NCBI GenBank assembly: GCA_030540395.1
Contig: JAUNWI010000002.1
Location: forward strand, 1 to 64,000
From: Phascolarctobacterium sp.
GTDB lineage: Bacteria > Bacillota > Negativicutes > Acidaminococcales > Acidaminococcaceae
Length of the DNA: 64,000 bases
Direction: 5' to 3'
In this document: positions 38,769 through 41,543 of the stretch, piece after piece
Numbering within the stretch: position 1 is the stretch's first letter
Layout: each line of letters begins with the position of its first letter
Notes under the pieces: model-generated
What the model was told of the DNA's origin: nothing
What the model saw: the letters and a program-made list of their open reading frames with translations, nothing else
Database searches by the model: none
Translations under genes and position numbers: made by a program

Positions 38769-39152
38769 ATGGATACACTGCAGGTAAAAGAAACTTGGAA
38801 ACAAAAATTTTTTTCCACTAAAGGAAGAATCAATCGTTTAAATTATTTATTGGGTAGCATTGCCTTACAACTAATAGCAAGTGTTGCCCAATTCATGAGT
38901 ATAACCGCACTTACTCTTATGGGAATGGATTCAGCAATTATAGGGGGACTGTTACTGTTATTAATTGTTGCTTTGGTTCTAGCATGTATCTGTAGCGGGA
39001 TATGTTTAACGATAAAAAGATGGCATGACTTGAATAAATCTGGTTGGTATACTTTGCTATGCATCTTAATTATACCAGCTATTTACATTATTTTTGCTAA
39101 AGGTACTGATGGCCCGAATAATTATGGACCGAAGCCGACTAGTGATAACTAA
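38769..39152 (+). CDS. DUF805 family membrane protein
   Basis: Protein of 127 residues with three to four membrane segments. It carries the DUF805 marks: FSTKGRINRLNYLLGS near the N-terminus, KRWHDLNKSGWYTLL in the middle and GTDGPNNYGP at the end. The family is widespread and without known function; it often lies beside phage or stress-type genes. GAGGAGAG precedes the ATG. The gene is AT-rich compared with the flanking core genes. Confidence 0.85.
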   Translation: MDTLQVKETWKQKFFSTKGRINRLNYLLGSIALQLIASVAQFMSITALTLMGMDSAIIGGLLLLLIVALVLACICSGICLTIKRWHDLNKSGWYTLLCILIIPAIYIIFAKGTDGPNNYGPKPTSDN

Positions 39153-39166
39153 GTGGGAGGGTAATC

Positions 39167-39382
39167 ATGGATGAGCTATACTTATGTCTTTATATTTTTT
39201 TAGGCTATAATGCTAATCAATATTTGCGTAGACATTTGTTGGGACAGGTAGGGGTGATTTACTTTGATACAGGTCGTTATATCTTAAAAGAAATCTTCTA
39301 TGGATTCTTTCTGGGATTTATTACTATCCCGCTAGCCGTTATAGTTTTTCTGTTTAGGAGTTTGCTTTCCGGTAAATCATAA
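39167..39382 (+). CDS. Small membrane protein of unknown function
   Basis: A 71-residue protein with one clear C-terminal membrane helix (FLGFITIPLAVIVFLF) and a Tyr-rich N-terminal half. No family recognised. GGGAGG 8 bp before the ATG and a 14-bp gap after the DUF805 gene suggest it is really translated in the same operon. Confidence 0.55.
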   Translation: MDELYLCLYIFLGYNANQYLRRHLLGQVGVIYFDTGRYILKEIFYGFFLGFITIPLAVIVFLFRSLLSGKS

Positions 39383-39771: not shown

Positions 39772-39815
39772 CTATTTCCTCAAAAATAGATTATAATTGT
39801 AATACAACCTGTGAT

Positions 39816-39862
39816 TTTTAGGGGCCAAATTGAAAGAAATGAGCTTAAAATGGCCCCTAAAA
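39816..39862. repeat. Left boundary hairpin with TTAGGGGCCA arms
   Basis: TTTTAGGGGCCA (39816-39827) pairs perfectly with TGGCCCCTAAAA (39851-39862), 12 bp around a 23-nt loop. The arms match the hairpin at 40484-40526, about 650 bp away. Confidence 0.85.
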
Positions 39863-39878
39863 TTTATTAAAATTGCTA

Positions 39879-39907
39879 TTGCGTTTTAATAATGGTTATG
39901 GTACAAT
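39879..39907 (+). promoter_or_regulatory. Promoter of the leader and orphan-gene unit
   Basis: TTGCGT (39879-39884), 17-bp spacer, TACAAT (39902-39907). Predicted transcription start near 39914, some 220 nt before the orphan gene. Confidence 0.6.
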
Positions 39908-39913
39908 ACCCAA

Positions 39914-40135
39914 ACAACAGAATAGTAAGAAAGTAGGGTTGCCTAGTGCAGCTTTTACCTTCCGTTTGACAACTAAAGCGAGTAAAAGGCTTTGGTGTTC
40001 GTTATGAATGAGTTCACACTGTAAGTGTGTCCAAATGTCAGATGGAGGGCTTTTTTATTGCCTCCAATGACAAAAGCTCTATGAGTGGTTCATAGAGCAG
40101 TAGTTAATTTTGTGTTTTGTTTGGAGGTGTTATTT
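39914..40135 (+). ncRNA. Structured leader with competing terminator and antiterminator stems
   Basis: CCTTCCGTTTGACA (39958-39971) can pair over all 14 bases, with four G-U pairs, with TGTCAGATGGAGGG (40036-40049), which is followed by CTTTTTT: a terminator-like form. The same 40036-40048 strand can pair instead with CCTCC (40061-40065) and TGACA (40068-40072), freeing the transcript. GCTTTTAC (39951-39958) also pairs with GTAAAAGGC (39982-39990), and 9-bp hairpin GCTCTATGA/TCATAGAGC (40076-40098) stands before the ribosome-binding site. This is attenuator or riboswitch architecture. It matches no riboswitch class I recognise. Confidence 0.55.
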
Positions 40136-40438
40136 ATGTATTACGAAAAATTAATTCATCTTCTTGAAAGCGAGGCTTCCGATGAGGAAATCATCGATTG
40201 CGCCTGCCTGATGGGGCCCCACGAGCTCTGCCCCAGCAGGGTCGAGTTGTTTGTTTTCTACTTCCTTGAGGATAAGGAGGATGAGCTGATCTGGCGTGTT
40301 CTTCACGGGAGTGAGGATATCGCCTATGGCGCGGCTTATTTCCTTGCTTGGAAGTACGATCTGTTAGGGCTCTTTTTCAAAGAGTTCGACTTGGTCAAGG
40401 CCAGGGGGCGGCTCAACCAGTTAGGGTGGTTCGCCTAA
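40136..40438 (+). CDS. Orphan 100-residue acidic protein
   Basis: Starts at ATG 40136 (GGAGGTG 7 bp upstream); MYYEKLIHLLESEASDEEII, ending GRLNQLGWFA. It is acidic, helical, with Cys and Trp residues and no membrane span. No family recognised. It uses AGG, GGG, CTC and GTC far more than the ribosomal and metabolic genes, suggesting acquisition. It is the only gene between the two matched hairpins and is preceded by a long structured leader. A perfect GTCACCC/GGGTGAC hairpin follows its stop. Confidence 0.55.
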   Translation: MYYEKLIHLLESEASDEEIIDCACLMGPHELCPSRVELFVFYFLEDKEDELIWRVLHGSEDIAYGAAYFLAWKYDLLGLFFKEFDLVKARGRLNQLGWFA

Positions 40439-40441
40439 CTG

Positions 40442-40459
40442 GTCACCCTTATGGGTGAC
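40442..40459 (+). terminator. Short hairpin after the orphan gene
   Basis: GTCACCC TTAT GGGTGAC, a perfect 7-bp stem, begins right after the stop. No T-run follows, so it may stabilise the RNA rather than end it. Confidence 0.5.
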
Positions 40460-40483: not shown

Positions 40484-40526
40484 TTAGGGGCCAAACTAAG
40501 ATATTTTTGCTCAGTCTGGCCCCTAA
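40484..40526. repeat. Right boundary hairpin with TTAGGGGCCA arms
   Basis: TTAGGGGCCA (40484-40493) pairs with TGGCCCCTAA (40517-40526), extended by ACT/AGT inside. The arms are the same as the hairpin at 39816-39862; loops differ. Confidence 0.85.
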
Positions 40527-40554
40527 ATTTGCTCGATGTACGCATTAAGGCAAC

Positions 40555-40582
40555 AAAAAAGTTCGCATCAGATGATGCGAAC
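40555..40582 (-). terminator. Terminator of the tRNA-Arg gene
   Basis: On the minus strand, GTTCGCATCA pairs with TGATGCGAAC (perfect 10 bp, 2-nt loop) followed by TTTTTT. It lies 16 bp after the tRNA 3' end. Confidence 0.92.
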
Positions 40583-40597
40583 CTACGTCTAAATATT

Positions 40598-40674
40598 TGG
40601 TGACCTCAGCAGGACTCGAACCTGCGACCTTTTGATTCGTAGTCAAACGCTCTATCCAGCTGAGCTATGAGGCC
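40598..40674 (-). tRNA. tRNA-Arg (anticodon ACG)
   Basis: The minus strand folds into a full 77-nt cloverleaf: acceptor GGCCTCA with TGAGGTC (one G-U), D arm with AGCTCAGCTGGATAGAGC, anticodon stem TTTGA/TCAAA around CTACGAA (anticodon ACG, for CGT), T arm AGGTTCGAGTCCT-like, and genome-encoded CCA. The A at position 34 would be edited to inosine by TadA. It lies about 50 bp before lgt on the same strand. Confidence 0.96.
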
Positions 40675-40727
40675 ACATGGTGCTTCTTCAAGCAACGCTA
40701 ATATTATAGCGAAGAGAAGCCGTTTTG

Positions 40728-41543
40728 TCAACGACTTTTTTTCTGTTTTTTGGCAGCGGTTGCAGGCTGCCCCTGGTGCTTCTCCTTCCAACCGCAGTAA
40801 AGGAACAATACAAGCAAAATCAAGAAAATGCCAAGGCTTGTAGCCTGGGCGGACTTCAGCCCAAAGAGCCAAGGCTCGGCGTAGTCGCCTCGCAGCATTT
40901 CGAGGAAAAAGCGCACTACAGAGTACAGCATACCATACATGCACAGCGCTTGGCCGCGGGCGTGATTCGTAGTACGGAATAAGAGCAGCAGTACGAAGAT
41001 GACTACATCCAACTGGCCCTCCCACACCTCGGCGGGCCAGAGGGGCTGGGTACCGTAGGTTTTGTAGGCCAGCGTTCCCTCCGGATACAGCAGGCCAAAG
41101 TTACCGCCCGTAGGCGTACCAAAGGCGTCACCGTTGAGCAAATTGGCCATACGGCCGATGGCCTGGCCAATCAAAAGCGACGGGGACACAATATCGCCGA
41201 AGGTCAGCCAATCAATATCGTGCAGCTTGCAGTAGGCGATACCCGCGGCAATGCCTGCCAGCATGCCGCCCTGCACGGCCATACCGCCCTGCCACACGAA
41301 GGGGATCTCCAAAAGGTGCTCGCTATAATAATCCCAATCGAAAAAGAACACATCCCACAGGCGTCCGCCGATGAGTCCGGCAAAGCCGCCGTAAATGCCG
41401 ATGTCCAGCACATGCTCGTGCCAGCGTCCGTCCTGCTTTGCTAGAAAATAGGCTGTACCGGTAGCCAGGAAAATGGCCATACATAAAACTAATCCGTACA
41501 TGCGCACAGGAAAATCGCCGATATAAAATAAATATTGATGCAT
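40728..41543 (-). CDS. lgt: Prolipoprotein diacylglyceryl transferase
   Basis: Membrane protein of 271 residues with about seven hydrophobic segments. It transfers diacylglycerol to the lipobox Cys of prolipoproteins such as the MetQ and solute-binding proteins in this window. The Lgt signature (GRMANLLNGDAFG near residue 130), the N-terminal MYGLVLCMAIF and the conserved GGLIGGRL-like FAGLIGGRLW segment are visible. A Lys-rich tail closes it. Divergent from glyQ. Confidence 0.95.
   Translation of the reverse strand: MHQYLFYIGDFPVRMYGLVLCMAIFLATGTAYFLAKQDGRWHEHVLDIGIYGGFAGLIGGRLWDVFFFDWDYYSEHLLEIPFVWQGGMAVQGGMLAGIAAGIAYCKLHDIDWLTFGDIVSPSLLIGQAIGRMANLLNGDAFGTPTGGNFGLLYPEGTLAYKTYGTQPLWPAEVWEGQLDVVIFVLLLLFRTTNHARGQALCMYGMLYSVVRFFLEMLRGDYAEPWLFGLKSAQATSLGIFLILLVLFLYCGWKEKHQGQPATAAKKQKKSR

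Follow-up and report, generated by a model that had tools for sequence, protein, structure and literature searches.

What does a folded RNA leader of roughly 220 nucleotides do in front of an orphan gene, and what might set its state? The locus lies in a 64,000-nucleotide stretch of Phascolarctobacterium DNA, referred to here as the window, for which a preliminary description had proposed an undescribed-looking attenuator or riboswitch leader. The attenuator-like layout agrees with the folds, shuffles and conservation presented below, while a small-molecule aptamer finds no direct support in them. The leader is a genuine conserved regulatory RNA and is probably an attenuator exerting control at both transcription and translation. 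This is a known kind of design; the RNA and the gene match no described family and are restricted to their lineage. The sole other carrier found is an uncultured Phascolarctobacterium MAG (genome G003, contig CAMFZA010000117.1; loci L003 and L004 are the same place), hereafter the sister. The transcription unit has three parts:

39879..39907, forward strand: promoter TTGCGT-17-TACAAT with an extended -10 TG, from direct reading and conservation in the sister
39914..40135, forward strand: structured leader of about 222 nucleotides
40136..40438, forward strand: orphan gene encoding an acidic, predicted all-helical protein of 100 amino acids

In the promoter, read directly from the sequence, a -35 element TTGCGT (39879-39884) is separated by a 17-nucleotide spacer from a -10 element TACAAT (39902-39907), and a TG at 39899-39900, one base 5' of the -10 element, provides an extended -10. 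The -35 element matches the consensus at only three of six positions, a weakness that explains why a consensus scan did not list the promoter. The -35, TG and -10 motifs are identical in the sister, whereas the spacer carries four changes, and the promoter given in the preliminary description is thereby confirmed. Transcription of the leader would start near 39914.

The orphan gene begins at an ATG (40136) eight bases after a GGAGG Shine-Dalgarno sequence (40123-40127) and ends at 40438. Comparison with the sister gives a dN of 0.048 and a dS of 0.297, and the resulting dN/dS of 0.16 indicates that the gene truly encodes a protein and is held by purifying selection. The protein belongs to no family in Pfam, NCBIfam, PHROGs or PADLOC, and neither the sequences nor the AlphaFold model found a match in the PDB; the model itself (pLDDT 63) is too weak for fold inference. 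The gene's codon use had been described as foreign to the window. That claim is weak and is not upheld as worded: compared with pieces of equal size cut from the long genes of the window, the gene ranks at the 4th percentile, and neighboring small genes deviate more. At the 3' end of the gene, a pair of strong hairpins lies within 40418-40457: CCAGTTAGG..CCTAACTGG, which spans the stop codon, and GTCACCC..GGGTGAC. Both are kept in the sister except for one loop base.

The leader folds far more stably than its composition predicts. The segment 39914-40057 has a folding energy of -46.1 kcal/mol where its shuffles average -31.9 (z -4.3); the longer segment 39914-40145 reaches -75.0 where they average -52.4 (z -4.9), with no shuffle as good in either case. 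Across 39914-40098 the leader is 96% identical to the sister, differing at 7 of 185 positions, whereas the flanking non-coding DNA is 80-85% identical (18 of 109 positions differ; Fisher 3e-4) and changes have occurred at 17 of the roughly 60 synonymous sites in the orphan gene (Fisher 4e-7). Being more conserved than both its flanks and the synonymous sites, the RNA appears constrained in its own right. Conservation continues beyond the terminator described below, with 97.6% identity over 40058-40098, and within 39915-40034 loops and junctions are nearly completely identical, as are the stems.

Relatives beyond the sister were sought widely. The covariance-model search suggested in the preliminary description, run over 380 genomes of the class, recovered the window and the sister only, and this one homologue offers no compensatory changes between the two sequences. 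The orphan protein found no further relative in the same 380 genomes, nor did a two-sequence protein profile in 398 genomes of the phylum. Phages and plasmids, searched with tblastn and blastn, held no match to the gene or leader, and viral contigs, searched by protein, by protein alignment and with two leader patterns, held no real match. Two weak matches were set aside as chance: L005, a read-through match, and L008, which lies antisense to a dehydratase gene. A scan of the whole window against Rfam at the gathering score, which included the T-box covariance model, brought one tRNA alone to its cut-off and left the leader without a match. Relaxing the threshold for the leader to an E-value of 10 (5 for the sister) returned weak, unrelated families far below their cut-offs, in keeping with the earlier remark that no known riboswitch class could be recognized.

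The core of the leader is a set of strands that compete for one another:

39958..39971, forward strand: strand 1, the 5' arm of the terminator stem, from the minimum-energy fold
40036..40049, forward strand: strand 2, both the 3' arm of the terminator and the 5' arm of the antiterminator, from fold computations
40051..40056, forward strand: U-tract TTTTTT on the 3' side of the terminator stem, from sequence reading
40061..40072, forward strand: strand 3, CCTCCAATGACA, a partner for strand 2 (antiterminator) or for the Shine-Dalgarno sequence in the folds, unchanged in the sister
40123..40127, forward strand: strand 4, the gene's Shine-Dalgarno sequence GGAGG, from direct reading and computed folds

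Strands 1 and 2 pair over 14 bases, three of them G-U, and this stem is present in the minimum-energy fold, as is the terminator-like arrangement with TTTTTT that had been described for it. In the antiterminator, TGTCA (40036-40040) pairs with TGACA (40068-40072) and GGAGG (40044-40048) with CCTCC (40061-40065). The computed folds support the claim that strand 2 pairs either upstream or with CCTCC and TGACA, in a mutually exclusive manner. They also add a pairing absent from the preliminary description: in the minimum-energy fold CCTCC (40061-40065) pairs with the Shine-Dalgarno GGAGG (40123-40127). The leader thus holds three competing helices, namely a 1:2 terminator, a 2:3 antiterminator and a 3:4 closed ribosome-binding site. 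With 1:2 formed the Shine-Dalgarno sequence is fully paired, and when 2:3 is forced its core is largely unpaired.

Chance rarely produces this arrangement. Of the dinucleotide shuffles, 1.2% contain a terminator-like stem of at least 11 pairs before a T-run, and the complete three-way layout arose in 0 of 3000. The computed terminator stem and U-tract overlap the alternative stem, as is expected of an attenuator. The computed equilibrium energies favor the terminator form over the antiterminator form by about 12 kcal/mol, a gap more in line with a strong steric trigger, for example a ribosome, than with a weak equilibrium set by a ligand. The sister folds into the same main helices, and two within-pair changes keep or strengthen pairing (39966:40041, U-G to U-A; 40060:40128, G-U to G-C). 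Each of the five substitutions in the leader is compatible with the fold, two lying in pairs and the rest unpaired. With two sequences only, there is an 18% chance that five substitutions placed at random would all be compatible, so the comparison provides no covariation evidence either way.

Four further hairpins surround or lie within this core:

39935..39955, forward strand: hairpin P0 (39935-39942/39948-39955), in the minimum-energy fold of both sequences
39972..39996, forward strand: hairpin P2 (39972-39979/39989-39996) with loop GUAAAAG, in the minimum-energy fold
40015..40029, forward strand: hairpin P3 (40015-40020/40024-40029), in the minimum-energy fold
40076..40098, forward strand: 9-bp hairpin between strand 3 and the Shine-Dalgarno sequence, exactly paired and differing in the sister in the loop alone

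The last of these is exactly as previously described. P2 and P3 sit inside the loop of the terminator stem, which at 64 nucleotides with nested hairpins is unlike that of a simple terminator. A stem crossing the terminator had been placed at 39951-39958/39982-39990. The pairing exists, with a corrected extent: CTTTTAC (39952-39958) is exactly complementary to GTAAAAG (39982-39988), the latter forming the P2 loop. A possible pseudoknot could form through this pairing, whose duplex is weak (-4.2 kcal/mol); a 7-nucleotide complement between the P2 loop and upstream sequence arises by chance 0.9% of the time.

A candidate for the element that sets the switch, one absent from the preliminary description, overlaps strand 1 of the terminator:

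39946..39969, forward strand: candidate upstream open reading frame of seven codons, GTG CAG CTT TTA CCT TCC GTT TGA, from direct reading, intact in the sister

This candidate frame is preceded by a weak Shine-Dalgarno sequence, AGGG, located 7 nucleotides 5' of the GTG and within hairpin P0. It remains intact in the sister because a 1-nucleotide insertion there falls right after the stop codon. Every base of the frame is the same in the two genomes, and for that reason coding constraint is inseparable from RNA constraint. Blocking 39946-39965 in silico shifts the fold to the antiterminator and frees the Shine-Dalgarno sequence, and in the fold model the terminator is lost in both genomes when the frame is set as occupied. 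The antiterminator probability is then 0.88-0.94 in the window and 0.15-0.67 in the sister, the lower values reflecting the sister's stronger 3:4 pairing; when the block on strand 1 is placed at the start or stop codon, the Shine-Dalgarno sequence of the sister stays mostly paired. Two other frames were considered and rejected. A second small frame (40004-40024) leaves the terminator undisturbed when occupied, and a longer TTG-start frame over strand 1 (39939) is broken by the sister's insertion.

The nearest known system is the vmlR leader of Bacillus subtilis, which spans 219 nucleotides, carries a three-codon upstream frame in its first stem-loop, and contains an intrinsic terminator (PMC9226507). 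Its last hairpin covers the Shine-Dalgarno sequence, and antibiotic-stalled ribosomes turn on both the transcription and the translation step (PMC9226507). The Phascolarctobacterium leader shares this layout of parts: about 220 nucleotides, a very short upstream frame within the opening stem-loop, an intrinsic terminator, a helix covering the Shine-Dalgarno sequence, and an alternative pairing that would relieve both blocks. As in vmlR-type leaders, a short frame lies on strand 1 and its occupation flips the fold, with the Shine-Dalgarno step less clear in the sister. The two differ in that vmlR encodes an ABCF protein whereas the gene here is an orphan, and in the GTG start and 64-nucleotide structured terminator loop found here. 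The topAI/toiL leader of E. coli offers a second parallel, in that stalling on an upstream frame would rearrange base-pairing near the ribosome-binding site of a gene in a small module (PMC12121999). Control by toiL ends in Rho-dependent termination (PMC12121999), whereas the leader here has an intrinsic terminator.

Taken with these parallels, the folds suggest a possible mechanism, which we advance tentatively as somewhat short of probable: the leader would be a cis-acting attenuator of the orphan gene at two steps, with a ribosome on the upstream frame as the likeliest trigger. By default, strand 1 would pair with strand 2 to form an intrinsic terminator at about 40056, and most transcripts would end as an RNA of about 143 nucleotides. 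Where transcription continues past this point, strand 3 (CCUCC) would hide the Shine-Dalgarno sequence. Occupation of strand 1 would instead leave strand 2 to pair with strand 3, so that no terminator forms and the Shine-Dalgarno sequence is released. The likeliest trigger would be a ribosome slowed on the seven-codon frame (39946-39969), which would amount to translation-stress sensing as in vmlR-type leaders. The promoter, the competing helices, the conservation and the purifying selection on the gene are observed, whereas we infer termination, read-through, translation of and stalling on the upstream frame, the nature of the trigger, and any advantage that the orphan gene confers. Against this mechanism stand a comparison limited to two sequences, the GTG start, the weak AGGG inside P0, the sister's stronger 3:4 pairing, the large structured terminator loop, and a gene that is not a recognized resistance or biosynthesis gene.

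The surroundings of the leader and gene suggest a cassette, whose boundaries the preliminary description does not mention:

39818..39860, no strand assigned: palindromic GGGGCC hairpin at the left cassette edge; sister homology begins at 39814
40484..40526, no strand assigned: palindromic GGGGCC hairpin at the right cassette edge, where homology ends

The block homologous to the sister runs from 39814 to about 40530, starting and stopping at these 43-bp hairpins, of which the genome holds these two copies and no others. Their role may be that of bidirectional terminators, or they may record how the cassette moved. In the window, a DUF805 gene and small open reading frames lie upstream of the cassette and a tRNA gene directly downstream; the sister has an 83-aa open reading frame upstream and a YefM/ParE-type toxin-antitoxin pair downstream. 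From this arrangement, the leader and gene look like a cassette that occupies a variable site with an HTH gene on one side and a tRNA gene on the other. No tRNA-end direct repeat of the kind that marks an island was found in the window.

Several other features of the site were recorded. In the sister, the YefM-type antitoxin and ParE-type toxin (L004, 3458-4019) lie between the cassette and the tRNA gene and are absent from the window. The DUF805 membrane protein (38769-39152) and a small open reading frame (39167-39382) occupy the same variable site, and both are further from the window norm in codon use than the orphan gene. The tRNA gene and its flank (40528-40740) have a second copy, 83% identical, at G000:C17:16638-16851, and tRNA-flanking copies recur in the genus.

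Other explanations draw on parts of the same evidence. It is unlikely, in our assessment, that the leader is a ligand-binding riboswitch or a protein-binding leader in which a P0/P2 sensor with its pseudoknot, around and inside the terminator, decides between 1:2 and 2:3. The loops and junctions of 39915-40034, conserved like the stems, and the low chance frequency of the P2-loop complement are consistent with such a sensor, and terminator-embedded aptamers exist: the HMP-PP riboswitch likewise holds folded elements within its terminator stem (PMC6478431). The leader here has neither a sequence match to that riboswitch nor a thiamin gene, or indeed any metabolic gene, and Rfam gave no match even at the relaxed threshold. 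The weak pseudoknot duplex would also have to act against the roughly 12 kcal/mol preference for the terminator. Riboswitch classes are usually more widely distributed than the two carrier genomes seen here.

Unlikely to much the same degree is a reading in which the promoter-proximal RNA of about 143 nucleotides neutralizes the orphan protein by binding it, with the protein made from low read-through, as an RNA-antitoxin/toxin or abortive-infection pair resembling AbiF/RCd22. That system consists of a promoter, a structured RNA of about 130 nucleotides with a terminator, and read-through into the gene, with no second promoter (PMC12373285), and the parts here follow the same order. Two further features would fit: a variable location next to a tRNA gene, at which the sister carries its toxin-antitoxin pair, and an RNA more conserved than the gene. 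This reading would leave unexplained the conserved pairing of strand 3 with the Shine-Dalgarno sequence 3' of the terminator. Moreover, a direct-repeat search of the leader found none of the tandem repeats before the terminator that are expected of type III systems, the abiF RNA family (RF03085) gave no match, and Pfam and PADLOC identified no type III toxin (ToxN/CptN/TenpN-type) or Abi domain (Abi_2-type) in the 100-aa protein. A broader version, somewhat unlikely in our view, joins elements of both proposals: a lineage-specific RNA with a pseudoknotted sensor in its terminator would form, with the orphan protein, a mobile two-part cassette, the RNA being either a riboswitch of a new ligand-sensing class or an antitoxin without repeats that acts on a small toxin of a new type. 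Quite improbable is a constitutive low-expression leader that responds to no signal, in which a leaky terminator and a hidden Shine-Dalgarno sequence simply keep the gene weak. In both genomes the default fold is strongly in the off state, as this would predict, but the conserved 2:3 pairing would then have no role, and there would be no need for 96% identity in P0, P2 and P3.

If the two-step attenuator with a ribosome as its trigger is right, the locus would be a self-contained, doubly controlled gene cassette in a gut commensal. Its regulatory RNA would be under tighter selection than its protein, suggesting that control matters more than the exact product. The inducer, once found, would open a first route to the role of the orphan protein, probably within a stress, antibiotic or phage response.
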